64,000 bases of DNA from Siphonodentalium dalli (taxonomy: Eukaryota; Mollusca; Scaphopoda; Gadilida; Siphonodentaliidae). The notes under the pieces are model-generated. The model searched no databases and was not told the DNA's origin. It worked only from the letters and a program-made list of their open reading frames with translations. The position numbers and the translations under genes are program-made. The stretch is taken from contig CP136065.1 in assembly GCA_032622095.1 (NCBI GenBank), forward strand, positions 242,153,530 to 242,217,529. The letters run 5' to 3'. Shown piece after piece: positions 1,469-33,342 of this stretch (positions within the stretch are counted from its first letter, which is position 1; every line of letters begins with the position of its first letter).

Positions 1469-1729
1469 CATCAGTTCGGCCTCTGGTGGCTTATCCGGAG
1501 AATGCTGGCTCTTTTGGAGGTGCTGTTGTTGTGGTTCAAGGAGTCTGTCTAGAGCCCAGTGACGATATCCAGTGTGATTTTGGTGGAGTTACAAGTTCGG
1601 GTTCCTACTCAAGCCAAACCAAGGCGTTTTGCTTTGTGCCCAGGCTTTCTACGGCTGGAATAATTGATCTAACTGTGTCTGTGAAACGTAATAGACGAAC
1701 GCACACCACAGCCACCAAATTCACGATAA
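1469..1729 (+). CDS. mesh/SUSD2-like: Exon: IPT/TIG (E-set) domain
   Basis: This 261-nt exon follows CTTTTCAG and ends A|GTGAGTATG, phase 1 at both ends. It encodes about 87 residues typical of an IPT/TIG fold: PENAGSFGGAVVVVQG (the G-rich start of the sheet), DIQCDFGG, a second Cys in AFCFVPRL and the closing strand TATKFTI. The Cys pair is usual in the family. The same 3' junction is copied many times in the next intron (see array at 2658-4545). The IPT domain favours Mesh over vertebrate SUSD2 as the closest match. Confidence 0.85.
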
Positions 1730-4700
1730 GTGAGTATGTTAACCCTTTACCCAACAAACCGGCCAAAACCGGCCAAATAAAGCTTCAACAGCCTAAAATA
1801 TCTTCGGTCTGTCTCAATAGAACCATACACATATGGATATCATTGGAACCGGCTCCTTGGCCACATTGTGATAGTTACAGTTATACGCTGTGCCAATGCA
1901 TTCTCTTATATATGCGAGTCGACCATAGGTCGCCTCGCATACATAAGAGAATGCATTGGCCTAAAAAAAACCTTTTTTTAACACTTTTTACCATTTTTTC
2001 TTACACTCTTTAACAATTTTTTAATTTTTAATGTGTTAAGCCAATGCATTCTCTTATATATGCGAGGCGACCTATGGTCGACTCGCATATATAAGAGAAT
2101 GCATTGGCACAGGGCCCTTCTGTTGGGTAAAGGGTTAACTATGGAATCCTATTACGGCCACTTGCTAATGGCGCTTTCGGCGCTTTCGGCGCGATGCGCC
2201 GAAAGCGCCGAAAGCGACAAAAAGTGCGCCATTAGTAACGCGCCGAAAGCGCCGAAAGCGCCGAAAGCGACAAAAAGTGCGCCGTAACGGCGCACTATTT
2301 GTCGCTTTCGGCGCTTTCGGCGCTTTCGGCGCGCGCCGAAACAACGCTAATGGCGCACTTTTTGTCGCTTTCGGCGCGCGCGCCGAAAGCGCCGAAAGCG
2401 ACAAAAAGTGCGCCGATCGGCGCACATTTTGTCGCTTTCGGCGCTTTCGGCGCGCGCCGAAACAACGCTAATGGCGCACTTTTTGTCGCTTTCGGCGCGC
2501 GCGCCGAAAGCGCCGAAAGCGCCGAAAGCGACAAAAAGTGCGCCGATCGGCGCACATTTTGTCGCTTTCGGCGCTTTCGGCGCGATGCGCCGAAAGCGAC
2601 AAAAAGTGCGCCGAAAGCGCCATTAGCAAGTGGCCGTAATAGGATTCCATAGTTAACCCACAGAATGGACGAACACAGACCACGATAACAAAATTCACGA
2701 TAATTGAGTATGTTAACTGATACGTAATAGACGAATGCACTCCACTACCACTAAATTCACTATAAGTGAGTATGTTGACTGATCACCGTGATACGTAGTC
2801 CAAGTCTTCTCGTACTAAAACCAGCTAAGATACTGGGATGGAGATGCTGGTATTTAGTCCGAGATCGCCGCCATAGGCTTCTTATAACACGAGTTACGCC
2901 CAGGGTTTGTTGCGGGAATTCGTGGTGTATTTTACTCAATTTACCTCTCAAATCAATACATGATGCTATCAGAAAGAGTGACATATTATGGTCATAATGG
3001 TGTATAATAATCTAACTTTCATGTTAAATTACACATAGAATATTCCGGTTGATTGCCATTAACGTCGCTTTTTTGATATGTTTGTTTACGTTTTAACTGA
3101 AAGCCGAGTGTTCCGAAGAACTACGGCATTGTCCGGAGTTTGTTTTGGCGGAGACGAATTTCGATACAAGCAAGATGGCAGCCGCCATATTTATTCTAAT
3201 GCTCGTTGTGTTTACACTGTTTTAAACTGTGAGAGGGTTGTAATTCTCGTAATTTATTTAATGTATTACATTTATATCTTCAATATTTACTTAATCTATT
3301 TATTTATTTATTTATTGACACACATAATTACAATTACAATGGAGAATTCATCGCCATGTGCGTGGTTAGTCGAAAATCTACGGAATATTTTCACAGGAAA
3401 ATGCCGAACTCAGTTCGCGAGGTCAACTGAGTTCGCATACTTTTAAAAATATGTCAACAATGCGGTAAATGTCACTTTTCACATTAAATTACCGCTTTCA
3501 ATTCACAACTGATGTGGGTTTCAGATCAAATAATTGTGGTTTTATTTGAGCGAGTCACTAACGCTTAACTCGTGTTATAAGAAGCCTATGGCGGCGATCT
3601 CAGACTAAATACCAGCATCTCCATCCCAATATCTTAGCTGGTTTTAGTACGAGAAGACTTGGACTATGTTATACGTAATGGACGAACGCACACATCGACA
3701 ATTAAATTCACGGTAAAAGAGTAGTTAACCCATATAATGGACGAGCGCACACCACGATAACTAAACTCACGATAATTGAGTATGTTAACTGATCACTGTG
3801 ACACGCAATGGACGAACACACACTACGATAACTAAACTTACGATAGGTGAGTATCTTTACCCACATAATGGACGAACTCACACCACGATAACTAAACTTA
3901 CGATAGGTGAGTATCTTAACCCACGTAATAAACGAACGCACACCACGGACACATAATGGACGAGCGTACGTCACGTTAACTAAATTCACGATAATTTAGT
4001 ATGTTAACCCAGATAATTGACGAACGCACACCACGATAACTAAATTCACGATATAGGTGAGATGTTAAACCACGTAATGGACGAACGCACACAACGGACA
4101 CTAAATTCACAAAAGGTGAGTATGTTAACCCACATAATGGACGAGCGTACGTCACGTTAACTAAATTCACGATAATTTAGTATGTTAACCCAGATAATTG
4201 ACGAACGCACACCACGATAACTAAATTCACGATATAGGTGAGATGTTAACCCACGTAATGGACGAACGCACACCACGATAACTAAAGTCACGACAGGTGA
4301 GTATGTTAACCCACATAATGGACGAACGCACGTCACGTTAACTAAATTCACGATAATTGAGTATGTTAACCCAGATAATGGACGAACGCACACCACGATA
4401 ACTAAATTCACGATAGGTGAGATGTTAACCCAGATAATGGACGAACGTACACCACGGACACGAAAATCATTATAATTGAGTTTGTTAACTGATCACTGTG
4501 ACAGATAATCGACGAACGCAAACCACGATAACCAAATTATGTGCTATACTAAATGGATTTTCCCAGTCATATCAAACATGTACATCGGAATGGTCTATTA
4601 TTGATTTGGAGGGATGTTAATGTGATACAAACAGATCACAGATAAATACAAGTACCGAAGGAGTCCTTTTTTATAGAGGTAAATATGTAAATAATAATTT

Positions 4701-7700
4701 CAACAAACGACCTATTGTTGAAACTATTATCTGAACATTTCCCATGTGATAACTACTCATCAATGATGCTTTAGTATAGAAAGGGTTAACCTTATTATCT
4801 GAACATTTCCTATGGGATCACTGCTTATCAATGATGCTTTAGGATAGAAAGGGTTAAACTTATTATCTGAACATTTCCTATGTGATAACTACTCATCGAT
4901 GATGCTTTAGTATAGAAAGGGTTAACCATATTATCTGAACATTTCCTATGGGATAACTACTAATCAATGATGCTTTAGTACAGAAAGGGTTAAACTTATT
5001 ATCAGAATATTTCCTATGGAATCACTGCACATCAATGATGCTTTAGTATAGAAAGGGTTAAACTTATTATCTGAACATTTCCTATGGGATAACTACTCAT
5101 CAATGATGCTTTAGTATAGAAAGGGTTAAACTTATTATCAGAACATTTCCTATGGGATAACTACTCAGTAATGGTGCTTTAGTATAGAAAGGGTTAAACA
5201 TATTATCCGAACATTTCCAATGGGCAACTACTCAGCAATGATGCTTTAGTATAGAAAGGGTTAAACTTATCATCTAAACATTTCGTATGGGATAACTACT
5301 CGTCAATGATATTTTTTAGTATATAAAGGGTTATTCTTATTATTTGAACATTTCCTATGGGATAACTACTCATCAATGATGCTTTAGTATAGAAAGGGTT
5401 AAACTTATTATCAGAACATTTCCTATGGGATCATTACTCATCAATGGTTCTTTAGTACAACTGAAGGGGTCATTGTCGCCACATTTTTGGCGTGTTGGGT
5501 TCCCATCTTTGCGAAAAGGTATTTTGGGTACTCAGCTTGTCACTGACTGTGACTGTAAAGGTCGAACAGTTGGTGTTCATACGTTTAGTATGGCACGGGT
5601 TAGCAACTTGCAACTGATGAAGATCTTATTGACTTTTCTCTTTTCCTTCTTTGATGATCTCATTTATAAATTATAAATTTTAACTTTTGGTTTTATTAAA
5701 GGCACGTGAGGCCTTAGTTGTCGAAAATATTCATATTTGTTCTAATCACCGTAAACAGAAAAAACATTAAAACGCATACAGTTTCGTTCATATATACCAT
5801 GACCATCACGTAAACAGCATGCTATCATAAAGACCTACTATATTTTACCTAAGCAAGAGCCTGATAGCTGTTACAGAAGACAGCACAATGCTACTGGCTA
5901 ATCACACATAAATGGCATAAACGCTCTTTATTAGTTCCATATCAGGAATTCACCAACAAAGAACGCTCTTTATTTTTACCATCATAATATAAACAAACAC
6001 CAGAAAAGTAACTTTTTATGCTTTTGTTTACATAACAATGGTCAAACATTTGACAATAACATACTGTTTATGCGATATTTCTTATTTGTATACGGACAAA
6101 GTCTGTCTACATTTTGATGTTCTTTCTGTTTGTGGCGGTTTTTGACGGGTGGAAATATTTTCACAGGATACCCACCGCCAAGGCCAACCGTACCTTTAAT
6201 GGAGATATTTTTTTTTTTTTTTTTAATATTTTTATTGGGATCATAAATTATCATCATCTTCAACAATCACTTATACAGAAATGTATACATAAATCAGACA
6301 TAATTATACATCAATAGTTATGATATGTAATCAAATTGTTCCAATCGTTATATAAGCTTAGATTCATATAGTATATCTTCTGTAGTATATGTTAGATAGC
6401 ATAGTAAATAATCGGTCGGCCCGAGGCCGCATTTTTTTGTGTAGAACTACATTGTAAGTAAAAAGAGAGTAATAGTTACAGTATTTCAATATTAAAACAG
6501 TCTGTTCACTTCTTCCCATCTTTCTCTAAAATTAATTTCTTTTTTTGATTTGAACTTTGGCGGAGTGAAAGTTTCAATTGTTTTGTAATATTTTATATAT
6601 TGGACAAGCCCTTGGATACTTGGTGCATTGGCCTTTAATTTGCAATAATATGGATAACGCTTATATAATAAAATGCATATATCAATAATGTTTGAGTCAG
6701 TGGTGTTATTTCGCAAACCAAGAATGATGAAATCAGGAATAATTTCAAAAGTGATATTACATTTACTTTGCAGGAGGTCTTGGAACTGAAGGAGTAAGGT
6801 CTTTGAGACTGTGCACTCACGAAAGAAATGTAAATTTGTTTCTTTTGCAGTTTCACAGAAGCCACACAATTCAGTTTCTGATAAGTTACATTTATATAGT
6901 TTGGAGTTTGTGTAAATGATATCATGTGAAATTTTATATTGAAATGTTTGTAAACCAGTATCATCTGTAATTTGATATGGATTTGAGTAAATTATTTCCC
7001 AATCTGTATTGCTAATATGTTTTTTAAGACGTTCATCCCATTTCTTCTGTGTCAGTTCTGGCTTTATAGCGTTATTTTCTAAAAACTTTGGGTAGAATGT
7101 TTTACATACTTTTATTGCAGATTGCACAGTCTCAATATGTTGCATATTAATAGAGTCCAATTTTGTATTTGACCTCAAAATAGTTTTCCATTCAGATGGT
7201 ATAGCATTCAAAAGACCATGGTATGTAGTGAATGGGGTTTGAATACCATACATAGAGCAAAATGAGAAATAATCTAGAAAACCATTCCCGGTTTCATTCA
7301 TTAAATCATTAATGAAATATATTCCATGGCTAATCCAATTTTTATCAAAAAATTTCTTACGATTAACAGTAATATGTTTATTTAAATGTATTGGATGTGA
7401 CATGATGTCGACCGGGGCTGTGGTGGATTTTTTTTCTACTAAAGACCATGCATGTAGTACACTTTTCCAGAAATTGTTCATGTCTGAACTAACAATATCG
7501 AGTCCTTCTTTGTTCAAAGACCAAATTTTGTTTCCTCCATATATTTCTAAATCATCTATAAATATGGTTTTCCATCCAGTTATTAGTAAAGGGTCTAATG
7601 TTTTTTTAACCCATGATAATTTCAAAGCTTTATCAAATGAGTCAATATGTGGGAAATTTAACCCACCTAAATTTGTTTTATTAATTACAACATTTCTTTT

Positions 7701-16700: not shown

Positions 16701-19700
16701 CCTGAGGCACATCTTAGAATACGACACGCAAAAGGTCAGACCCAGAGTAACATGACACACGAAATGTCATGGGATAGGTGCCGTTGTCGTCAAATGCAAA
16801 AAAGAGACACTAATTATTACAATTAAAGAGCGTTTGTTTTATGAGCTTAAACTAATTATTCACACGATGTTTATGTATGTCGTGTTTGTTACCCGTCATT
16901 TTTGACGGACAATCCCCTAGTTATTATACTAAATAACAGACGAATAATTTAAAATCACGTTTCTGTGTGACTGTTTGTACATTTGTGAGATCTTGTGTGA
17001 CGATTTTCACGAAACCATGCGACGATGACAAACACATCCACATTAAGTGTATACATGTATACATCATTAGACCTATATTTTTCAGCGCTATCAGTAAATT
17101 AACTCCTTTCGGTTGGTTCGTCAACTCATATATGACCGAGAATTACGGAGCGGCATGGCCCTACGATAAGTGTGATGCGTGGTACCAGAAAGAAAAGGAA
17201 GACATGTCGTGGAACGCCGCACTCATCAACTGTCCGTGTACGCTCGATCAGGCCCTCCTCGACTTCGGTCGGTTTCAACCCGATCCGTCATGCAACATGT
17301 TTGCTGGGAGTGTATGTGCGTACCACAAAGGAGCCGTGCATTGCGTGCGCACAGTGGTTCCTCGGTGAGTTATAGAGACGCCGACAGGGACGTGACGACA
17401 GGGGTTGGGGTATCAACATTGCCAACAGTTTGAGGACGCCTGACATATATAAGATAATGCATTGGCCTGACAATATTTAACTTGAACTCGTTAGAAATAT
17501 TCGACTTTCGGTGTAAAAACTAATAGATTATTCCACTACTTTCAAATGACTTTTTTTGTTGGACTGAAATGCCATTTACGTAGTTGGAAACTTTTCAACC
17601 GCAGGTATGGTAGGTTGAGAAAGCTTGAGTTCATGGATACGGCGATATGGGTGGGGTTATGATGGATCAAACACTCCATCCCAACTTTATAGTTGTAAAT
17701 TCCATGCCTGATATAACATTAGTTGCAAATGTTGGACAAAATATATAATGATACTATTCTGATAGTTGTGTTTTCAGCAACCAATATTTTGTGCGATTTT
17801 TTAAAAACTGTATATAATCCCAAATTCGGTTAAATATTTGGACTCAATTTGCAATCAGTAGGAAACACCCTAACCATAGGAGGCGATCTGTTGGAAATTT
17901 CCAATATTTGGGGCCAACGAATTACGCTACTAACAGGCCATTGTCATTGCATCAGTGTTAAGTGGTCAAGCTCAACAGCGAACACCATGGTGTAGCGAAC
18001 GGTTCGTTGCTTGAAATGCCATGTCCGCTGTCATTACGTCATAATTATGATGTCCTGCGATGGCTTTCGAAAAACTTGTTTCAATTAAAACTGGTTGTCT
18101 TAATAATTTGTCTGATATTGACGGAATCAAGCAATTTTACTCGCCCAGCGGCCGGTTTTCGTTGCCCGACTTTTCGCCTTAGAGGCCAAAATGTCTAATT
18201 TTTACTGCCGCAGCGGTCGGTTTTCGTTGCCCGGCTTTTCGCCTTAGAGGCCGAAAGAGGCGCGTTTCAATCATATTTCCAATTTCCCGCTGTTTACTTT
18301 GTTGTCCCAAAGGAACGAAGATACTTCCGGGATAATCGCGTAACGATTCAGATGTTGCTATTAGTGAACAGCCATAATTCTGTACGAATGCGCTAGTCTG
18401 CGTAAGATCAGATGATTTTACGACAGCTACACCAGAGCCGTAATTTCGCTAAAATCCGGATTGAGAATCCAAAGCCGATTACGGGGGGCGGAGCTAATTT
18501 CGGATTCTAGGTCAGATTTTGAAATCCACGTGGTCTCCGAAAATCTCTCCCAGCGTCAAACATGGCTCATGTATTTGACAAAAGTATCATTTGTATCTTA
18601 TATTTATAAACTGCATGTTTGTTGTGAAATCATGCTTTTCGTCTATGTGTATATACACGGCACATAATTTGCTGCCAATCCGACTTAATCGCATCTTTTT
18701 TTTCAAGTTAAAGTGTGTTTATTGATGTTGGCAAGCATATCTAAACATGACAGCTCTAGGCCTCCTGAATCAAATTCCAAAGATGTTGTGAAGAACACAC
18801 GAAACTTGTCAGTTGAACAGGGACGTGACGACAGGGGTTGCTTGTGTGTCTCGACCCCCACCCCGATTTTTGGTACAATTTGCTAAGCTGTGCAGTCATT
18901 CATACGTGAGGAAAATCAGGATTATTTTGACTAACTGTTTCAAATAATGATACGTACAAGCCAACAAACGCAACAAACAAACAAACCCGATTTGAAATAA
19001 ATACATATACAAACTTATGACTAACTCGGGAGAGGGGGTCATGTACGTTGCTTTGCCATTACTAATTATTTATTTTTTCAGTGTAATAACATTTGGGAGA
19101 GGGGGTACCCTTAAGTGAGTCAGTACTTGTCCCCCAATTCCTTTGTATGTATAAACAAATGTATGTGTTATATATCATGTGTTATCTAAATTTGACATAT
19201 ATTTGAAATAAATATATCTAAACTAAACTTTGGTACATTCCAGCAGTCGGAAATTTCATGCATGACACAACATTAGTTGGACATTAATTTGACACCATAT
19301 ATAGGTTGGCATTGTTCTCATTGTTTGATTTTTTTCAACCAGTAAAAGTTGGTAATTTTCCAATCTTAGTGTTTGTCAGATTGGATATTTCCAAGGGGAG
19401 CAAATTGAAATCTGCGAACCTGTGAGATTGATGTTTGGTTCAAGGGGGGGGGGGGGGGGTGCAGTTGGCCGTAAATTTGAGGAAACTTCTAGCCACGTCC
19501 CTAGAACATGTGTCTGTTGTCTATACAGAGACTATTGTGCAAAATTTTGCATTAACGACTGCATTTAACGAAACAAAACATGTTAAACATGAAATTGCTA
19601 TAACATTAAGACTAGATGATAGTACATACGTGTATCTGATAATCCATCGATACCATATAATCCTACTATTTCTTGAATAAGAAGAAACATTATAATAACG

Positions 19701-22700
19701 AACACAGCAGAAGACATATCCATGCAGGTGCATATGAACTCGGTAAATGGTGACGTATCCGCCGAATTCGAAATCGACATGCGTTCGGGCGGTATTTTAA
19801 GGATGGAATTATGAAATGGACATATGAAAGTGACAATCAACAATGAATTGCAATTTCTTCGCCATCAACCGAAGTGCTCCCCCAGCGTTACTATCAATAG
19901 CGTTATTATTTGGCTAATTTCAGTAATATTCTCCCAGTTTACATTCAATAAAACAAATTTGTCTCCGCATTTAAAATTCTTTGATATAGATCGTTTATAT
20001 TCTGCAATAATTTGTACACAAGAGACGGATTCTTATCTTTTATTGTGTTTTTAAACTCTGAGGTGGCGAAATCTCGGTTTGTTTACATTACGAACATTTG
20101 AGTCCGTAATCGGAATCCGAATCCCTATCGGATTCCCACGAAATTAGGATTACGGTCTGTTCGTTTACTGATTCTGGAAATTTGTGGTCTGTTCTTTTGC
20201 CGAACCAAGTCGTACGGGGACAAATCTGTAATCTGAATCCAGAATCCAAATCGGATTTTAGCGAAATAACGCCTCTGGGCAACTGACCAATCAGCGCCGC
20301 GGAAATTGTATTTACCTGTTAGCAGAATGAATGAGTGAATTGGAATACTTTCTTTAATGTCGCCTATATTGTAACGACAGGAATATTTTATACATACGTA
20401 GTGGTATGGATATGCCTTATATGTAGTTATTTAGATGTATAGATGTATCAAATACCACGTTTTTATTTTATGAAATAAAAGAATTAATTGAATTGAAAAT
20501 TGTTATTTCACCATGCAGTAATAAGGCCGATAACTAGTGTTGTTATGTTATTTCACCATGCATGAATAAGGCCGGTAACCAGTGTTGTTATGTTATTTCA
20601 CCATGCAGGAATAGGGCCGGTAACCAGTGTTGTTATGTTATTTCACCATGCAGGAATAGGGCCGGTAACCAGTGTTGTTATGTTATTTCACCATGCAGGA
20701 ATAGGGCCGGTAACCAGTGTTGTTATGTTATTTCACCATGCAGTAATAAGGCCGGTAACTATATTGTTGTTATGTTATTTCACCATGCAGGAATAGGGCC
20801 GGTAACCAGTGTTGATATGTTATTTCACCATGCAGTAATAAGGCCCGTAACTATAGTGTTGTTATGTTATTTCACCATGCAGGAATATGACCGGTAACCT
20901 GTGTTGTTATGTTATTTCACCATGCAGGAATAGGGCCGGTAACCAGTGTTGTTATGTTATTTCACCATGCAGTAATAAGGCCGGTAACTATAGTGTTGTT
21001 ATGTTATTTCACCATGCAGGAATAGGGCCGGTAACCAGTGTTGTTATGTTATTTCACCATGCAGTAATAAGGCCCGTAACTATAGTGTTGTTATGTTATT
21101 TCACCATGCAGTAATAAGGCCGGTAACTATAGTGTTGTTATGTTATTTCACCATGCAGTAATAAGGCCGGTAACCAGTGTTGTTATGTTATTTCACCATG
21201 CAGGGATGGGGCCGGTAACCAGTGTTGTTATGTTATTTCACCATGCAGGAATATGACCGGTAACCTGTGTTGTTATGTTATTTCACCATGCAGGAATAGG
21301 GCCGGTAACCTGTGTTGTTATGTTATTTCACCATGCAGGAATAGGGCCGGTAACCTGTGTGGTTATGTTATTTCACCATGCAGTAATAAGGCCGGTAACT
21401 ATAGTGTTGTTATGTTATTTCACCATGCAGTAATAAGGCCGGTAACCAGTGTTGTTATGTTATTTCACCATGCAGGGATAGGGCCGGTAACCAGTGTTGT
21501 TATGGGGCTGATGGACTGCTGCGTTTTTCGGAGGATTCTTACCAAGGAAGCACGCCTGATAAGGGGCACACATGGGGAGCCCGTCCATATATGAAGCCCG
21601 GTTACGTTCCAAACTTCTCCCATTGGCTGGATGATGTTATAACCTTCTACTACTGTTGTTTGTGGGTTGATTATAAAGACTGTGACAAATATATGGAAGT
21701 GCGAGCTACGCGGGACTGCTCCGGGTATAGTCCCCCGAAAACAGGTCAGTATATATATATGACCCGCCATATCAAATCCAGTCATAAGTCGGGATTTTTT
21801 TTACCCTGTGCCAATGCATTCTCGTATATATGCGAGTCGACCATAGGTCGCCTCGCATATATAAGACAATGCATTGGCCTAACAGTTTTTACAATTTTAA
21901 TAATGTTTTCTTGTATTCTTTAACAATTTTATAATTTCACCCATACAGCGACCCAGACAAACGTGAGCAGACGACACTCTTCTATATGCTTCTATATATG
22001 TGTGGGGCTCCCTGCAGGGTAATGGATGTTTTTTATTTTATGTCCTAAAAATTGTAAGAAACATTTATTTAAAAAAAATGATTAAAAAATATTAGGCCAA
22101 TGCATTAAATCGGGGTTCACGATTCGATAGCGATTGTATTCAACCTGTGTAGCACGTGCCACGCGGTGAAACTTCAAAATGAGTATCCTGATTTAAAGGG
22201 GTACTCTACACTAAATCCGGCCATTTATGGGACCATCTACTTTTATACTCAGCATAATATATGCAACAAATGAATGAATCAGAGCCACGGATTAGTGTAA
22301 AATACACTTGTGTGCTCTATGAACGATGCTAACAACATGGAAATTATAATGAAAATGAATAAATGGCTGGAGTCATAAATTCATTTTCATTATAATTACC
22401 ATGTTGTTTGCATCGTTCATAGAGCACACGAGTGTATTTTGCACAAATCCATGGTATCAAATTCAATCATTTGTTGCGTATATTCTGCTGTGTAAAAAAG
22501 GAGATGGTCCCATAAATGGCCGGATTTAGTGTAGAGTACCCCTTTAATCGGAAGTGTGATAACCCAATATTGAGCATACTTTTGACTAAATAAATAACTA
22601 AAGGCATTGCTATAAGTTTCCCCAAATTTTTCATATACCGGACACGTTGGAATTCCACCTCAGATAAGTTTATTAACCTTTTCTCTACTAAATGTATATT

Positions 22701-25700
22701 CTTTAATCCAGTTTGAAGAGTTCATTTTATGTTGGAATCATTATTTTTAGAATATACAAATCTCACATTGTGGGTCAATTAACAAAACCATCAATGGTGC
22801 TGTTAATTTGTTCCGGTCATTTTGCTGGTCCCATGGTGTGAGTCGGTTCACGGAAAGATGAGTAAAGCAATTTCGAAGTAGAGTATAGCCATGGGGCGAA
22901 ATGTTTTTAATGAGTATTCACGTGTTAACTTCAAGAATATGTAATCGGCATGCACGTGAAACTAACATGCATTGGCCGTGCACAGGAAATTGACAACATG
23001 CAGACTGTTACGCCACTTTAGGTTACAGTGAAGTAATTATTTCCCATAGGCCTCAGTGTTAACATATAATGGCCTGCAGCCCTGACTATCCACGAATTGT
23101 GATAAATGAGTACATGGTCACCAGGATTGACATCTGCGCAAAGTTTCTGCATGAAAAAAATGATATCGTCGAGCATGGAATGTACCTTTAAATTTGGGAT
23201 TTATAATCGAGAGTCAGAATTGCATGAAAAAAATATTGACATTTTTTACCTCAAACCAAACAAATTTAATCTAGGAACCACGTGCTTTACAATGTGCCAA
23301 TGTTTTGTTTGGAGTCTGAAATTTCAAGAGGAGTGATTGCATGCATTTTATATGTTTAAATATCGAAACTACTATTAACCAACCAGAGCCCAGAATTTTT
23401 TTAATTCTCTCCTGCATCTTGGTCCAAAATCCGTTGGAGGGCGCTACCGATCGAATTACATCACTGTAACCATAAGGGTATGCTTGTGGATTCGGGGAGG
23501 GGGGCATAGTGTCGAGAGGAACTTGGCAATACAGCAAAGAGCGGCTATTTGAACTTTAGTGCTTAGTACAAAACGTACTTGTAAAGTACGTACATCGTGT
23601 GTGTAATTGTCTGCAGTAGATATGAACTGCATAATAAATGGTATGGTAAACTGATATCGTTATATTTATTTCGACAAAAGAGGGATTATAGATTAATTAC
23701 CACACGTACACCTCCGTTTGGTTTATTTCATCAAGGTGTGAACTATTAGCATTGCTTCGATATTATATTTGCTATTTGATATTGAAGTTTTATAATGGCT
23801 TCATTTACACAGTTTGATTCAACGTAAACATCGATCTTTGTTGGTTATCGGAAATGGCCTAACAATCACACCTGTTTTTTTGTTTAAAAACTGGTTCTAT
23901 TTTTGTTTATATCTAACGACAGTCACATATACAAGATGCATATATACACACATAGGTATCTTGAAAATCGTGAAATTAAGAAAGAAGCTATATTTTCTTG
24001 TTATATGGCGTTTAACAACACAGTCCGTTCTCATCGGAAGCCATTTTAGCACTGAAGAGATAGCGAAATTGAGATGGCTTGTGGTGCGTTGTAACAGTAA
24101 CCATGCAGTCTACAGGTGGGCGGGACGTACGGATAGGTCCATTGTCTGCAGTATATATGAACTGCATAATAAATGTTTGATTATTTGGTCAACGGTATTA
24201 GTATTGGTATAAAAAGGTCCAATAGGAACGTGTACGTCATACAACCGATTTACCTGTCATAACACCATTTATTGCACAACACGTTTTAATTGCAAATTAA
24301 AAACAATAATTATGCAAATGAGAAAACACCACAGTTCACGATTGTTACGAAAATGTGGGGTTTATAAAAGGAGTGTTTATGATACTATTAGAGAAATATG
24401 AAGAAATCTCTGCTCGTTGACTACTTCGTAGCTCCGTGTTTACTTGTTATCTGCACATTCCAATCAATGAATATTAATCATTGTAGTAGATAAACTATAT
24501 ACCATAGTTGATTCCTAAGCTAGATAATCATGATCCAGTGGGATTGTTTTTTGCAAATATATTTCCCGTCAAAATCTCAAATGACCGTTTCAAAACATCT
24601 TGTTTTTTAAATCTCTTTGTTGTTTACTGAATTAGAACATACCTCTCATATTGTGAGGGTGAACAGGTGTTGTTGTAGTACTATAAAATATATTGGTTGC
24701 TGATATTTTCCTTCAAATTGATAATTTGACATTGAGAATTTTTTTAATCCATGTACCTACACGTTCTCCATCCGCTGTTGCAAATGATCAAGTTGAGCGC
24801 CTTCATTACTTATATATAGAGTTTATAAATAAGGCTTCTCGTTTTCTGATTCAGCTGTGGCGTTTGGTGATCCACACATCGGCACCTTCGATGGAATTAC
24901 ATACAATTTCGGTGGAAAGGGAGACTTCGTCATTCTCCGAGCGAAGAGATTCGAGCTTCAGGGCAAATTTGTTCAGCTGACATCCGAGTGTGAGTGTATT
25001 CGTAAATACAGAACCATATATACTACTCATATTTTGGTAAGGATCACCCACATAAAGTAATATGATATTGCAAATGGCAATTCTATGACCGTCAACATAT
25101 CATATTGTAGTTGGTTTCATCCCATAATTATTCAACCGATGAATACGTGAACGGTGACGTTATTTTGTAACTGTCGACATTAATGACACCCCCCCCCCCC
25201 CAACAATCAAACATTGAAATTAATCTTTGGAATTATTGGAGACATTTTCAGATATCAAATGCCCATTTCCAATACTGGGTGTGATCTCTCCAACCCCTTA
25301 CCGCGAACCAATGTAATGCACACCTGCTGTATTACTCACAATTAGCAGAAGTAAAAACAAGAATACAGTTTAACTGGTTTGGCATGTTCTTCGTAGCGAC
25401 GATGGTTGTATACACGTTTATTATTTTTCATTTTACCCATTGCCAGTGCCGTATGTCCCTTTAAGTCATATTCATTGACAACTCTTTGCATGCAAATACT
25501 TCGAACTGACCTCGCATTTCTAACCTTCAGTCGGCACACGACAATAGACAGTCATAATTACCGTCACAGTTCTAACCTTCAGTCGGTAGTCGACAAAAGA
25601 CAACCATAGTTACCATCACATGATGACCTTTAGACGGCACACGACAACAGACAGACATAGTTACCGTCATATGTCTAACCTTTAGTCGACACACGACAAT

Positions 25701-28700
25701 AGACAGCCGTAAGTACCGTAACATTTCCAACCTTCAGTCTGCACACCCCAATCGACATCCATAGTTACCATCACATTTCGAAACTGCAATCGGCACACGA
25801 CAAGCGACAGCCATAGTTACCATCACATTTCTAACCTTTTGTCGGCACACGACAATCGGTAGCTATAGTTACCGTTAACTCACCTAACATTTCTGACCTT
25901 CAGTCGGCACACGACAATCGCTAGCCATAGTTACCGTTAACTCACCTAACATTTCTAACCTTCAGTCGGTACGCGCCAATCAACAGCCATAGTTGCCGTT
26001 GCCTTAACTGATCCAACAGACTCTAGCAGCGTCCTGGAATTCCGGATTCGGTCTGAGAATGCAGACAGGATGAAACGATCAGTTGATGTCCTGGTTGACA
26101 ACCGCTATGTTTATTTTGACAAACCTGGAATGGCATGGCAAGACTTTGATGGTAAGATGTGGTTTACCACGCATGGTTGCCTCAGTCTCATTTTGATTAT
26201 TTGACCACCATGGAAGTTACTCACACACACATATATATATTTCGAGCACATATAAGCGGGAATATATCTATATAGTTCGTTTTACTTCTTTGGTGTCGTT
26301 GATCGTTTTGTTTTTTTGTTTGTTTGTTTTTGTTCGTGTGTGTATTTTTGTTTGTTCATTTGCTTAAAACTTATTACTTGTTTCCAATCTGGGGATATTG
26401 TTGCATTGTAAATTGGGTGTTCTTTTGGGAATAAAACATTCTTTGATTGCACAAAAAACGAGATTCCAGCTGTACAGTCATTCCCGATCTCTTAATTTCG
26501 ACGAAGCCGTCTCTATCTCCTCGAAATGTCATCTTTACTGACCATGTATTCGAAGTAGTACGTGCTAATCCCATCGAACATAGGTTTCTGTGGATATTTC
26601 TCCAAATGTCCACTCCAGACGATAATGACCCGTCCATATACCACTGCAATGTATCTTTGAAGAACTATCAATTTCGACGCTTTGGTTGTGTATGGTCACT
26701 TTTATGAAAAGTAGCAAGACGTCCGAATCATTAACTGAATATCCATCTAGTCGAGGTATGATGGTCCCCAGCATATGCTGTTCGGTAAGCTGGGCACTGA
26801 TGGTCCCCAACATATGTTGTACTGTAAGCTGGGCGATGTACTATAAGATGGATTCTGCCCTGTAAGCTGGGTGCTGATAATACTGTTGAGTCCCTGCTAA
26901 AAAAAACGAAAATCAATCTGGACGAGTGATGTACATCATTTATGTGACACAGTCAGTATAAACCAAAAACGGTTCAAAAGCTGGATTTTGAAAATATACA
27001 TCAATGAAAAATATATCGGATTCTCGATTGTTTAGCTGCATAATATACTGAACTGCTTTTTAGATACTGAACCATTGCGTTGATGTTTTAGCGTGTTTTT
27101 CTGTGTGTTGAATTTTGAAAATTTCCGAATATTTATACTTCTAGACCAAAGTATAGTGCGCCTGTAATTTGCAGAATGAGATCCCCAGAGGGTAAATTTA
27201 GGGACGATACCCCGCATAGCGGGCTAGCATCACTAAATTCTGCTTAGGCCTCATCTTCTCTGGAAAGTTTCTTTATTGTCAATTTCTATAGAAACATAGA
27301 TTCTATATTTTTCTTAACTTCGTATCCCCAAATTGGCAGACGACACATTGCATATTCGAACTTCCCAATGGGTGTACATAACAATAATCACCATTTGGGA
27401 ACTTCAATCTGAGACTATGTCTCCCATAGCCATGCAGAATGAGGTCCTCAGAGAGTGAATTTGGTGATGCTAGCCCGCTATACGGGAAGGCGTCACAAAA
27501 TTCACCCTCTGAGGACCTCATAAATTCCCGTCATAAATTAATTTTCATTTTAATTACAATGTTGTTTGTATTGTTCATACGGTAAATGAGTGTATTTTGC
27601 ACTAATCCATGGCTCAAATTCATTCATTTGTTGCATATATTCTGTTGAGTATAAAAGAAGATGGTCCAAAAATGGCCGGACTTAGTGTACATTACCACTT
27701 TAACGTTAAACTTCCATTACAGTGATAGGAAAGGCTTGTTCAATTTAACGCCGAAACGAACGAGAACGAGGCAATGATCTATTGTGGTGATAAAGCTACA
27801 AACAAAAGATGAATTTACCCCTGGTCAAGCGGTGCTGCTAATATAATAATAATAATAATAATAACATTTGTATAGCGCTTATCCCCAATAAGCGGACCCT
27901 AAGCGCTTGACATAAACATAAACATGAAATATAAATATACACAATATCAAAGTCATTTTCTGAAACGCCGCGCAAACAAGTAAGTTTTCAATGACTTTTT
28001 AAAGTCGTCAAGAGATGGTGACTTTTTTATGTTCAATGGCAGAGGATTCCATGCATTTGGGCATGTTACTTTAAAAGATCGGTAGCCAACCGTGATCAAA
28101 TTAGCACCAGATGGTGTCAAAAGAAGTTTGTCCTCTGAACGAAGTGATCGGTGTGGGACATATGGAACAAAGATATCACTGAAGTATGCTGGACGAGCTT
28201 TTGAGTCATGGTTGCTTGATATGCATATGTAACAAGTTTATAAATAATTATATCTGTCACAGGTAGCCAATGTAATTCTTGCAACATTTCATCTATGTCG
28301 TCAGATCTTTTACGACACAGAACTATCCTTGCAGCAGTGTGTTGCAGACGCTATATCCAGCATTCCGATTGGTCGGCGCCCACGTGACTAGTTGCAATTA
28401 TTTCTCAGTGAACGCGCAAGAGGGTCATAATTGCAACCATAATTACATCGACGCGTCATTGATTTTGGGGAAGAAGAATGCGTAATGTTTTGGGCACATT
28501 GCACTCGCGCAGGATTGACTTAATAAAATTATCAGGTTTCAATATAAAGAGCCTCGTTTTGAAATTGTTCTTAGCTGGTTTCTGGTCTGGTGCAGATCAT
28601 ATGCTATGATGCTGGTGGTTCAGCTGGATTGCAATGACGCGGGTCTATAGGGCGTGTTTCTAAAACGACGTGAATAACCGTCTTGATTATAGTCGATTTT

Positions 28701-31700
28701 CAACAACTAATACAACCAGCATTTCGCAATAAATATGATTTTGAATGTTTGATACGCATAAGCTTTTCCTGGATATGTTGAGATTATCGGAACACCGCAA
28801 ACAAGACAAATTAAAAAATATAACGGTACTTTTTGTAACAGAATCAGAATTCAGCAGGGCACAACCGCATCATAGCATATCTAAAGTAAGGCAATTTATC
28901 TTTCTTTGAATTGAGGAGACTGGCACTCGTATAAATGCTATAGTATTATATGTATACAAAACAATGTCACATGCCCATAACCAAACGACGATGTTCTAAA
29001 ACACTACTACTGGCCCTTAATTATACGATTGTGTACTATAGTGTGCATATATTGTTTTTATGCCATATATATTGGCCGTACTTTTGAATATTATTACTTG
29101 ATACTGTTATTTCTGTTTCGCATACCACTATGTTCATTGTGTTTTTGACATCTACCTATTACTATCTTATCTTATCTAGCACATCAGCAGGACCACTTGA
29201 TCATGGGTGGAGTTGTATGGAACTTAATGCATTTAAAATGGGAAATTTTGGTGTTTTTTGAATGTTCACGTACGAGCCTCATAAAAGTAACGCCATGTAG
29301 TCCATATTTTACAGGATTTGTCGTCAGTTACGCAGACAGTCGGCGAATGCATTCGAATTTCACGGTGATGATGAATTCCGGCATAGGACTTCAGGTGGCT
29401 GAAACCAATGGAATGCTCCAAGTTAAGTGTAATGTTCCTCACGAATATATGGTAAGTTTAGGAATCATAAAGCATATTATTTTATCATTAGATCATATGA
29501 GTTTAGTCTCTTTGAAAAGCCGACGAAAATCCTAACGGATGTACGTCTCTATATTTTTTTACCCTGTGCCAATGCATTCTCTTATATATGCGTCTCACAT
29601 ATATAAGAGAATGCATTGTCCTAACAATTTTTTATCATTTTTTTAAAATAAATGTTTCTTACAATTTTTAGGACATAAAATAAAAGACATCCATTACCCT
29701 GCAGGGAGCCCCACACATATATAGAAGCATATAGAAGAGTGTTGTCTGCTCATGTTTGTCTGGGGCTCTGTATGGGTGAAATTATAAAATTGTCGACTCG
29801 CATATATAAGAGAATGCATTGGCACAGGGTAAAAAAATCTTACGACTGGATTTGATATGGCGGGTCACATATATGTCTCTAGATTTGTCCATTATATTTC
29901 ATTTCTACGACGACGCGGCATTCCCAACATGACGTAATAAACCGTTTCCAAATATGGAGTGCATGACTGACGTAGTAAATGTTCGTGAGAATCTTATTAT
30001 TTAGAAATAGTTATAAATACAATAAGATGCGAAGAATAATCAGTCATGAATATCGTTGACTGATAAAAACTCGAAGATGATGTGTCCTATATTGCGATAA
30101 TTAAAATTAATATTATAGATATATAGTCTGTATTCAGTTTTACAATAATAGTTGTGTTTGACAAAGCTTGGGAAAATTGTAAACACGCCATTGACCTATT
30201 ATATGATCTGTGACGTGATCTGTTATGCCATTAACCAATGGAATCGCGCGTATTCTGCGCCACTTTCCGATGAAGTGGAGGGAATCCCATCAACACAGAA
30301 ACTGATTTTAAATGACAAATCTAGATACGTACATCCGTTAGGATTTTCGTCGGCTTTTCAAAGAGACTGATTTGAGTTTAGATACGGAACAAAAAGACCT
30401 ATTAATAGTTTGAATCTTTAAATTGTATTACAGTTTAACCCCTGGTTAATATGGTGTTTGGGTAAACTGATGCTGTTTACAAAAAATAACGTTATATTAC
30501 ATGATCCTATCCTTATTCCATTCAATAAACCCGTTCTATAAATTGTGATATTAAAAGTTCATTGCATAATCGGAAATAGTACCAGTTGACCTTTGACTTC
30601 CGGTTTTCGTATGTTTACATTCCGTACGCCACATTTCAAAATACTATGGCTTCCATATTTTTTCAACAATCTCTAAATGAACGATAAGTTATATCATTAC
30701 ATTTACGCCATTAAATACGTCAAAGAGTCTTTATTTATCTGGGATTATTTTTTTACGAGGACATACAACGCCAGTTACGTGAAATGTCATCGCATGCCTC
30801 ATAAAAGCCGATGTTAGTTTCACGTGCCAGGTGTTGATTTAAGTATGTTTAATCAATGTTTTGGATCATGTAATAAATAAAATCTACAACTCGTCCCCAG
30901 TTTATAGCGGAATTTACAAAACGCGTCCAGTAAATTAGATCTGGGCGGCGGCAGAGCCTCACCAAAGGCTCGGTCCAGGCCTAATTTACTGGACTTGTTT
31001 TGTAAAATCCGCTATAACCTGTGGACTCGTTGTAGATCCACTATATGTTGAATATTTTAATACTGGTTGTATTAGTTGTTGCAAATCGACTACAATCAAG
31101 ATGGCTATTCACGTCGATTTGCAAACACCTGGGAGGCCACTATTAGAATTTTCAGAAATAGTTATGTAAATTGAACGTTTCATACATGGAATTTTCTCAA
31201 ATCGCTCGGATTAGCCAAACACCTCGAATATGACAACTCTAGAAATAAAAACAGCCGTACTTTTTCGTAACGGAATGAGGGACATGCCCGACCTGTAGTT
31301 CCTGGTTTATACATGTAGGTAAGGCTGTATAGAAACTAGTATGTCTGCATAGTGCGCAAGACAGAGTGAAATGATTGTATGCATGTTTATTAATAAATTG
31401 TTGATATTGTCTGCGTTCATATATATAATATGCTTCATTTTTATTCAATAACTAAATAAACTATTTGTGTGGTTCGTTGATCGCGATATTGTGATGTTCC
31501 TCACGAATACACGGTGTGTTTTATTTGTGTGGCTCGTTGATCGCGATAATGTAATGTTCCTCACGAAAATACGGTATGTTTGATTCGCTAACTTCTTGAT
31601 CGTGATAATGACGTTGCCACCATTAATATTGTGTACATAGCAACGGTTGCCCAATATGTGAACAAGGCTTATTATAGGCAAACAGAGATTTATTTGTGTG

Positions 31701-33342
31701 AGAAAAAGTTGTATGCACAACAACATATATATGTGCCTTACCCTGAACCATACAGCATGTCAGGTTTTAAAACGAATTACGTATTTTCATAAAATGCATT
31801 TTATAATTGATTTCATAGTCATAGTCGTTTATCGCTTTCTATACTGAATAGATTCTCACATTCGAGTGTACAAGTAAACATTGGAACGGTCTATAACTTA
31901 TTTGGAGGGATGTTTCGGTTATAAAAGCAGACCACAGACAGACGAAAAGATAATACAAATGCAGAAGGATCCATATTCATTGGTGGGAAATGTTCAGACA
32001 CTAAGTTCAACAACATGCCTTGGCCGTTTGTTGAACTTATTATATGAATAATTCCAGAGGGAACTACTCGTCAATGAGTATTTAGTAAAGAAAGGTTAAT
32101 CACATTAACTCGTCCATACATGTGACAGCTTGAATTTCTGAGTGTCGTCTGCTAACGTTTGTGAGAGGTTCCACAAGGGTAGTTTAACCCATCCATAACT
32201 GGAGTTGCATGAAATTTTTCGAAAACCATGTGCCAATGCATTCTCTTATGTATGCCATATGGATCCTCACATATATAATAGATTACATTGGCCTAACAAT
32301 ATTTACCTTGACCTTGTAAGCAAATGCATGCTCTTATATATAAGAGAGAATGAACCTGTACATGACAATACATGATGTATTAGCGCAGCTCCGTCATTAA
32401 CCTTAAGTCAACCGGCTGGCATTGCACCCTCTTCCTAGAGTTGAGGCCGTAGTACAAGCCCGGAATACAACAGACTAAGGCAACTGGATTCCATGCAAGC
32501 ACTAAGTAAAACAATATGTACAACTATTCACAACTCGAAACAATATATAAACATATCAACGCACAAAACTCAAACAGAGAAATCAAGGTAAGTCTTCTCT
32601 GCCGGTCCTGGTTCGGAATGGGGCCTATGGGGGTGTGGCTTTGCTTCTTGCTTTGGTGGCATCCACCTCATGCACAGTAGGCAAACACCTACTGTGCATG
32701 GGTATATATCAATCTCACAAACCCTACAAACGCTCTTCAGCGGAATTACGGCAATCAAACGTGGGTTGTAGGAGAGGGCCGACGGCCCTTTCAAATCTTC
32801 CCGGGTATCACCCCAAAACTCCTAACTTTCCGTCATTAACCGCCTGACATAGAAAGCTATTTTTTGACAGGACGACACGGATGGTTTGTTCGGAACATAT
32901 GACGACAATAAAGAGAACGAATTCACGACGAGTAAACGTCACGTCATACCCAGAAACTCAAACGATACGACGGTGTACAGGTCATTCGGACTGTCATGTA
33001 TGTATCACTGCTATTTAATATTCCATATCGCCTGTTCGGTCGGACTGTCATGTATATATCAGTGCTATTTACTATTCCATATAGCTTGTTCGGACTGTCA
33101 TGTTTGTATCACTACAGTTTAATAATTTCATATCGCTTGTTCGTTCGGACTGTCGTGTACGTATCACTGCTATTTAATAATCCATATCACTACATATCCC
33201 TTGGCATCGCGCCAAAATAATGACCGCGCCGCGTCTTTACATTGATTCAGGTGGATTAATACTATTTCGGAAAACCACGTATGACATCAACGCCAGACAA
33301 TGTAAAAATGATTGCTTTGTTCATAAAGTTAAATTATTGTCC

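Follow-up and report, generated by a model that had tools for sequence, protein, structure and literature searches.

Mirage-like minisatellites copied from splice junctions at five introns of one gene in the scaphopod Siphonodentalium dalli

Five introns of a single Mesh/SUSD2-like gene of the scaphopod Siphonodentalium dalli carry tandem arrays whose units are copies of an exon/intron junction of that same intron, affecting three donors and two acceptors. The arrays lie in a stretch of 64,000 nucleotides (hereafter the window) where the initial annotation had located them, including a displaced set after VWD exon 3, and every unit spans its own junction, combining sequence from the exon side and the intron side. 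We interpret these arrays, with a probability of roughly 70%, as mirages of the kind described for amphioxus, that is, as products of rampant local tandem duplication that are tolerated when they straddle a splice junction.

The gene shows the domain order IPT-AMOP-VWD-Sushi (Table 1). When searched singly, 6 of 10 stretches pass the Pfam cut-off (TIG, AMOP twice, VWD exon 1, C8-3_MUC4, and Sushi by 0.1 bit), and no convincing Pfam match was obtained for VWD exons 2 and 3 or the 13.9-kb exon. The spliced frames AMOP1+AMOP2 and VWD1-VWD2-VWD3-VWD4-C8 are open from end to end and match Pfam AMOP over profile positions 3-143 (E=2.5e-44) and Pfam VWD over positions 3-154 (E=7e-15), respectively. 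Judged by these open frames and domain matches, the exon edges of four of the five arrays are well supported, and the IPT donor is placed provisionally, from the TIG match together with its GTGAGT, a good donor motif. Rfam searches at the gathering threshold gave no matches within the window. Searches for a mollusc haemocyanin family (PF14830) and an arthropod cuticle family (PF00379) returned no hit, and the control genomes had none either.

Table 1. Exons, junction-derived arrays and inserts of the Mesh/SUSD2-like gene (window positions).
Feature	Position	Strand	Description
IPT/TIG exon	1469..1729	+	Pfam TIG E=8.6e-6; ends GATAA/GTGAGT (exon/intron), phase 1
IPT exon donor array	1684..4530	+	60-bp unit of ~42-45 nt exon end and 15-18 nt intron
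Transposon-like inserts parting the IPT array directly after the exon	1741..2659	.	palindromic element whose 52-nt arms (2132-2183/2608-2659) match perfectly
MITE-like insert, second split of the IPT array	2793..3669	.	107-nt inverted arms, 96% complementary
AMOP exon 1	17120..17364	+	left edge approximate; ends in phase 2; Pfam AMOP profile 3-68, E=4.3e-19
AMOP exon-2 acceptor array	20501..21504	+	spacing 45 or 47 bp; unit of ~18 nt intron end and ~28 nt exon start
AMOP exon 2	21476..21744	+	Pfam AMOP profile 73-143, E=2.4e-22; exon start is the last array copy
VWD exon 1	24855..24989	+	ends in phase 1; Pfam VWD profile 3-34, E=2.4e-5
VWD exon-2 acceptor array	25515..26000	+	~52-bp unit of ~16 nt intron and 36 nt exon; exon start 25966
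VWD exon 2	25966..26151	+	no Pfam VWD hit of its own; within the spliced VWD match
VWD exon 3	29315..29451	+	phase 0 end, ATATG/GTAAGT (exon/intron); no Pfam hit of its own; within the spliced VWD match
VWD exon-3 displaced donor pair	31462..31585	+	two 60-bp units; exon end 29451; exon itself without adjoining copy
VWD exon 4	32871..32997	+	donor GTATGT at 32998; Pfam VWD E=0.005 alone, below cut-off
VWD exon-4 donor array	32985..33188	+	~54-bp unit of ~13 nt exon and ~40 nt intron; exon end 32997
C8-3_MUC4 exon, same gene	37327..37575	+	Pfam E=1.7e-11; no copies at either edge, the tested donor position being one base off
Sushi exon, probably same gene	44046..44234	+	Pfam 20.8 bits against a cut-off of 20.7; edges without copies

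The arrays differ in the exon share of their units (about 42 of 60 nt in IPT, 28 of 45 in AMOP2, 36 of 52 in VWD2 and about 13 of 54 in VWD4) as well as in copy number. The IPT donor array comprises about 16 copies besides the real one at exon end 1729, distributed over three blocks (1684-1749, 2652-2781 and 3672-4530) that are parted by transposon-like inserts; the first insert bases after about 1741 also match a stretch at -1543, upstream of the window (98% over 50 bp). The AMOP2 acceptor array has 22 copies including the real one at exon start 21476; 20 of the remaining 21 retain the AG. The VWD2 acceptor array has 9 copies including the real one, spaced by 51-52 bp except for the last two (62 bp). 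All four copies of the VWD4 donor array, again including the real one, keep the GT. In the displaced VWD3 pair, each unit contains a 32-nt match (24 nt exon and 8 nt intron) to the exon-3 donor 2 kb upstream; compared with 264 kb of sequence, the unit has its sole match outside the array at 29428-29459 (E=1.7e-4), and the search of the junction against the window returned the two copies at E=6.5e-6 and 3.4e-4.

A blastn comparison of junctions with the window recovered same-strand copies crossing the junction in the own intron for 5 of 17 edges of this gene (15, 21, 8, 2 and 3 matches), and no crossing matches for the other 12, two of which were placed one base off. For each of the five units, the own edge scores best among the 17 and none of 2000 dinucleotide shuffles reaches this score, which bears out the initial view that each unit resembles only its own exon edge. 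The units were also rightly described as unrelated to each other: the score of every one of the 10 pairs was attained by 28 to 286 of 300 shuffles, and a shared origin is rejected. Seven other arrays in the window have no convincing edge match (21 to 534 of 2000 shuffles reach the score). Elsewhere in the window, a 39-bp array at 26759 looks donor-like and a 34-bp array at 33526 acceptor-like, neither matching any edge; a 68-bp array at 4721-5457 is part of a dispersed element, and a small donor-like array lies upstream of the window (-9109 to -8998), not tied to an exon.

If dispersed satellites had been captured by exons, the exon edge would be the derived copy, and the abundance of tandem repeats in this genome, and of dispersed elements that themselves contain arrays, offers some grounds for this idea. 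However, the units were not found in quantity at unrelated loci: a search of the genome's 9 contigs (2,226,750,531 bases), which skipped very common words and scored the best candidates alone, detected 28 matches to the five units, every one within the window gene, with no match at E<=0.01 outside it, and all 11 matches found for three mirage units sampled from other loci lie at their own loci. The exon edges moreover belong to full AMOP and VWD domain matches, and by our reading the equivalent position in an AMOP paralog on C9 is occupied by a phase-2 intron, without any local repeat; the AMOP2 array therefore came from the exon and not the reverse. We reject satellite capture as having next to no probability. 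The same paralog speaks against the gain of a new intron between duplicated signals in the AMOP case, and the VWD arrays are located inside introns of an open spliced frame. Chance resemblance or an assembly artefact is hardly conceivable either, given the shuffles and the junction search, the divergence of copies from one another inside arrays, and the recurrence of such structures at independent loci of C3, C4 and C8, including genes at 196.95 Mb on C3 and 79.43 Mb on C8.

The initial annotation stated that most copies keep the GT or AG, which holds overall (39 of 50 non-real copies) but not for the IPT array, where half of the copies lack the GT (8 of 16 keep it). This retention (20 of 21 copies in AMOP2) would fit selection for decoy or regulatory splice sites, as had been proposed, and so would a divergence of the sites below the unit mean in AMOP2 (0.023 versus 0.044), VWD4 (0 versus 0.106; 4 copies) and VWD3 (0 versus 0.056; 2 copies); the last two AMOP2 acceptors lie 45 bp apart, and use of the second-last would add 15 in-frame codons. 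Yet site divergence is about equal to the unit mean in VWD2 (0.111 versus 0.122) and above it in IPT (0.294 versus 0.134) and in the sampled array L062 (0.083 versus 0.044), so that the splice dinucleotides show no consistent extra conservation over the rest of the units across arrays. A frame filter on unit length, considered because 4 of the 5 units in the window gene are multiples of 3, was dropped since only 4 of 9 are when sampled tandem units are included. Amphioxus mirages are reported to leave splicing undisturbed (PMC3087553, PMC3902484). Selection for decoy sites thus finds no clear support, and we consider it very improbable.

Junction copies also occur in other genes. We sampled 54 exons chosen by hand from protein-family searches (12 of 85 myosin rows, 20 of 29 VWD, 20 of 48 ABC, 2 of 2 AMOP outside the window and 0 of 135 kinase), which yielded 104 edges (54 donors and 50 acceptors) after 4 of 108 had been omitted as uncertain (acceptors of L061, L073, L078 and L081). 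Splice sites were mostly set from a consensus score and in several cases by hand; the donors of L042 and L075 were set after the repeats had been seen (the automatic L042 site lies inside the exon and would not count, the automatic L075 site at 732 would, and the L075 donor used, at 738, is one base off). Considering non-dispersed repeats only, but with the paralogs L053 and L056, which are not independent, exempted from the dispersed filter, junction copies were found at 7 of 104 edges (6.7%; 95% CI 2.7-13.4%), compared to local non-dispersed repeats at 6.1% of intron points (bootstrap 2.4-10.3%) and 1.3% of exon-interior points. Under the stricter demand that a match reach at least 12 or at least 16 bases into both exon and intron, 6 of 104 edges remain. 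The affected edges (5 of 54 donors and 2 of 50 acceptors) all belong to ABC and VWD loci, including a VWD locus on C8 where 2.4 kb separate two donor arrays that probably belong to a single gene; none was seen at the 12 myosin exons or the 2 AMOP-paralog exons. Repeats near the donors of L041 and L064 are a dispersed element. At the sampled rate, five affected edges in one gene would have P of about 0.004, though the gene was picked because of them.

We propose that a mirage would be born when an ordinary local tandem duplication, probably by replication slippage or unequal exchange, straddles a splice junction by chance. Such a duplication would do little harm, since a single junction can still serve in splicing (here presumably the outermost one, meaning the first of the donors or the last of the acceptors) and the additional pieces of exon remain in the intron. 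The array would then grow, shrink, decay and be split by transposons in a neutral manner like any intronic minisatellite, and it would stay recognizable as a copy of the exon edge because purifying selection holds the exon copy still. Several observations favor this tolerance model: edges resemble introns in their coverage by local repeats and exon interiors are spared; breakpoints lie at varied distances from the junction, while copying from spliced RNA or a lariat would break at the splice site; splice dinucleotides decay along with their units; and unit lengths show no frame filter.

Besides decoys, the initial annotation had suggested that some process seeds exon edges with repeats, and here the evidence is divided. 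Coverage does not set edges apart from introns in the full sample, nor in a smaller one (5 of 81 edges versus 7.8% of intron points for all repeats, or 3 of 81 versus 3.6% with the paralogous pair set aside as dispersed), but counts of repeat families do. Among 14 local non-dispersed families in the sampled loci, 7 straddle an edge and 7 are intron-only (among the latter an exon-tail copy at L068 that stops short of crossing the junction), and the 7 at edges (6 if the paralogs count once) compare to 1.33 expected from the intron-only families (Poisson P(>=6)=0.0025), i.e., edges are about 4-5 times over-represented. Intron coverage also falls to 3.1%, half of the edge rate, when mirage loci are left out, and the window gene has copies at 5 of 17 tested edges, compared with 101 hits among 1310 intron points drawn at random from outside its arrays (7.7%; binomial P=0.008) and 218 among 1467 once the arrays are included. 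These figures, like the paired arrays on C8, would be expected if exon edges were true hot spots where some feature of the junction (e.g., R-loops, paused polymerase, nucleosome edges or the G+C step from exon to intron) raised the birth rate of tandem duplications. Against this, dispersed repeat makes up at least 34% of sampled intron and lifts the expectation to about 2.0 families, a value raised again by the slower decay on the exon side, and the sample is a small one selected by protein family. The family excess could be explained partly or wholly by the lasting recognizability of the exon half and by transposon-covered intron, and a pure tolerance model must invoke both of these as well as our choice of gene. 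We regard true hot spots as unlikely, if considerably less so than selected decoys, and hold similarly doubtful the wider notion that junctions stand several times above the intron background for duplication birth and that mirages arise from exon edges in general as a DNA-level by-product, well outside cephalochordates, and steadily supply material for new splice sites and introns. The contrast between edges, introns and exon interiors makes seeding versus simple tolerance directly testable by a whole-genome scan.

If about 7% of exon edges carry junction copies in an animal unrelated to amphioxus, mirages may be widespread and overlooked in large, repeat-prone genomes, where they can mislead gene prediction. 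They also constitute natural experiments in which the splicing machinery picks one among up to 22 near-identical junctions, and they provide the raw material demanded by models of intron gain by tandem duplication.

The initial annotation knew of no described class like this, which was mistaken: the mirages of amphioxus (PMC3087553, PMC3902484) are structures of this kind. They are known there from Adh3 (Canestro et al. 2002, via PMC3087553), the globins BflGb6 and BflGb9 (PMC3087553), and PGBD5 and troponin C (PMC3902484). They are described as tandem minisatellite-like copies across an intron/exon boundary, 5' or 3', in several unrelated genes, with units that resemble their own junction and with AG/GT kept in many but not all copies; the 45-62 bp found here fall within the span of their unit lengths (10-72 bp in Adh3, 60/108 bp in PGBD5). 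Our arrays likewise show boundary-spanning units, both boundary types, several unrelated genes with unrelated units and partial AG/GT retention. A further trait of the class is that array length is unstable, both from haplotype to haplotype and within somatic tissue; instability is reported for amphioxus Adh. Our arrays differ in that a single gene has them at five junctions, with up to 22 copies and with splits by transposon-like inserts, in that their rate is estimated at 7/104 edges, and in that they are read from one assembly; the genome is also larger, at 2.23 Gb against about 0.5 Gb in amphioxus. A single-gene splice-donor minisatellite similarly has repeated donor sites, which judging by the title of that report serve the transcript there, whereas ours are read from the DNA. 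In intron gain by tandem duplication in potato RdRp (PMC4974935) and in human internal tandem repeats at exon-intron boundaries (PMC2812944), the duplication takes in splice signals and changes or could change gene structure; in S. dalli no new intron appears to arise and the copies remain inside existing introns. Earthworm metallothionein genes, with intron-1 minisatellites and with exon-4 duplications that are absent from the final transcript and leave it unchanged (PMC12783039), are possibly related. What seems new here is the occurrence of mirages outside cephalochordates, together with a rough rate per exon edge.

In five introns of the Mesh/SUSD2-like gene, exon/intron junctions of the gene itself are repeated in tandem, as the initial annotation had claimed. 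Tandem Repeats Finder recovers these arrays, and on reading the sequence, the repeat units cross the junction at all five (see table). Same-strand junction-crossing matches are found at 5 of the gene's 17 edges (15, 21, 8, 2 and 3 matches) and at none of the other 12. When the units were aligned to all 17 edges and to shuffled controls, each fitted its own edge best, with a score reached by 0 of 2,000 shuffles. The five units are mutually unrelated (10/10 pairs within shuffle range), and seven further arrays of the window show no convincing fit to any edge in the same shuffle comparison. Two small arrays have donor-like and acceptor-like units that match no known exon edge; they may be remnants of exons that have since disappeared.

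Exon edges are well established at four of the five arrays. The frame is open across spliced AMOP1 and AMOP2 (AMOP match over profile positions 3-143, E=2.5e-44) and across VWD1-VWD2-VWD3-VWD4-C8 (VWD match over 3-154, E=7e-15, plus a C8-3_MUC4 match). Among single-exon stretches, 6 of 10 pass the Pfam cut-off, while VWD exon 4 alone falls below it and three others have no convincing match. At the fifth array, the IPT donor, the probable exon matches TIG (E=8.6e-6).

Repeat arrays, inserted elements and gene clusters. The five arrays of the gene were placed by sequence reading; L numbers are sampled stretches around exons of other genes, C numbers contigs of the S. dalli genome (G000).
Feature	Position	Unit, spacing or arms
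IPT donor array	exon end 1729	60-bp unit
AMOP exon-2 acceptor array	exon start 21476	45/47 bp
VWD exon-2 acceptor array	exon start 25966	52 bp
VWD exon-3 donor array	exon end 29451; displaced to 31462-31585	60 bp
VWD exon-4 donor array	exon end 32997	about 54 bp
Small arrays	26759-26834; 33526-33597
Palindromic element	2132-2659	perfect 52-base arms, 2132-2183 and 2608-2659
MITE-like element		107-base arms, 2793-2899 and 3563-3669
LINE-type element	6495-11684, minus strand
Dispersed-element array	4721-5457; single copies at 32034, 37718 and upstream of window	68 bp
Upstream tandem array	G000:C5, 86.9 to 78.5 kb upstream of window start	31 bp, about 259 copies, 8.4 kb
L042, VWD locus, donor	C4	91-bp spacing
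L053 and L056, paralogous ABC acceptors		one additional copy about 350 bp upstream
L057, ABC donor		exon-tail copy
L062, ABC donor		53-bp unit, six copies
L069 and L075, VWD locus, donors	C8	58- and 70-bp units, 2.4 kb apart
Myosin-head gene cluster	G000:C4:274219458-275508405	1.3 Mb
Protein-kinase cluster	G000:C2:149826753-150603706	many frames spaced about 2-3 kb

A dispersed-satellite origin, under which the units would occur in quantity at unrelated loci, is ruled out by a search of the 2.23-Gb genome with dimers of the five units (skipping very common words and scoring only the best candidates), in which 28/28 matches lie inside this gene. AMOP is present at one other genome location, where by reading a phase-2 intron occupies the corresponding position between AMOP exons, and this 2-kb stretch is without a local repeat. 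The exon edge is thus the source and the array its copy.

Inserts break up the IPT array: sequence starting some 12 bases past the exon end has a 98% match upstream of the window, and the palindromic and MITE-like elements are further inserts. The palindromic element contains nested GCGCTTTCGG-type inverted repeats, and the intron also holds the LINE-type element, with endonuclease-like and reverse-transcriptase-like frames by eye. A distance of 2 kb separates the VWD exon-3 set from its exon. When TRF units of period at least 26 in 264 kb were compared with that same stretch, the single place matched by its unit outside the array was the VWD exon-3 donor (E=1.7e-4). Inserted repeats likely caused this displacement, because 29831-29874, between exon and set, matches sequence elsewhere in the window.

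GT or AG is retained in 39 of 50 copies, real junctions excluded. Site columns are more divergent than the unit in IPT (0.294 vs 0.134) and in the ABC donor array L062 of another gene (0.083 vs 0.044), about equal in VWD2 (0.111 vs 0.122), and less divergent in AMOP2 (0.023 vs 0.044), VWD4 (0 vs 0.106, four copies) and VWD3 (0 vs 0.056, two copies). The suggested selection for decoy splice sites therefore finds no clear support: across these six arrays, selection neither in favour of decoys nor against them leaves a consistent mark. In several IPT copies the site is GGTGAG, which is closer to the donor consensus than the AGTGAG of the real donor. With 45 bp between the final two AMOP2 acceptors, splicing at the penultimate one would keep the frame and add 15 codons; one copy further upstream the frame would be broken by the spacing of 47.

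Junction copies are not confined to this gene. A sample of 54 exons from outside it (12 myosin, 20 VWD, 20 ABC transporter and 2 AMOP-paralog), taken with about 500-600 bases per side, has 7 of 104 edges crossed by local direct repeats, with none at the myosin and AMOP-paralog exons. The units of L062, L069 and L075 match their own loci only (11/11 matches), and the latter two probably belong to one gene. By eye, sequence related to the 68-bp array sits between both junction copies in L053 and L056. A dispersed, internally repeated element containing CTAAATTCACCCTCTGGGGACC (in L041) lies near several sampled exons (also L064, L039, L047, L052 and L063). The myosin cluster comprises about eleven very similar genes with nearly identical exon limits; the kinase cluster, a giant tandem gene array, has over 80 frames that lack introns, are nearly identical and run to about 281 codons each.

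The initial annotation also proposed a process seeding repeats at exon edges, and here two counts disagree. When families are counted, 7 of the 14 local ones lie across an edge, against 1.33 expected from seven intron-only families (P(>=6)=0.0025). By coverage, non-dispersed local repeats cover edges (6.7%, CI 2.7-13.4%) and intron points (6.1%, bootstrap 2.4-10.3%) similarly, and 1.3% of exon-interior points; intron coverage is 9.6% with all repeats and 3.1% with the junction-array loci left out. Earlier passes over 41 exons gave, with every repeat counted, 5/81 edges vs 7.8% of intron points, and 3/81 vs 3.6% with the paralogous pair treated as dispersed. At least 34% of sampled intron matches other sequence, and families located there were set aside as dispersed, which by our own arithmetic brings the expectation nearer 2.0; moreover, the exon half of a junction array, held still by selection, should stay recognisable for longer. 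For these two reasons we consider tolerance of random duplication the best-supported reading and edge hot spots for tandem duplication a less likely but live rival. The gene itself exceeds the sample (5/17 vs 7/104 edges, Fisher P=0.013; P=0.004 at the sampled rate) and its own random intron points outside arrays (101/1310, P=0.008; 218/1467 with arrays included), but this excess should not be taken at face value because the gene was picked out of a scan on account of this property.

In humans, going by a paper's title, an interferon-induced gene reportedly owes multiple splice donors to a minisatellite. Exon-4 duplications of a metallothionein gene in an earthworm are absent from the transcript (PMC12783039) and may be related to our arrays. 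Exactly such structures as ours are described in amphioxus as "mirages" in the globin genes BflGb6 and BflGb9, where regular splicing seems undisturbed and which were put forward as a source of new introns; the same paper cites mirages of Adh3, which are somatically unstable and have units of 10-72 bp (PMC3087553). Further mirages are found in PGBD5 and troponin C (PMC3902484). A limited open-access literature yielded none by that name outside cephalochordates, though other wording may be missed. The arrays are thus a real case of a known phenomenon rather than the undescribed class initially supposed, probably in a new lineage, as this genome has over four times the size of that of amphioxus, and they add to the amphioxus mirages a rough rate at exon edges and a sharper question on edge seeding.
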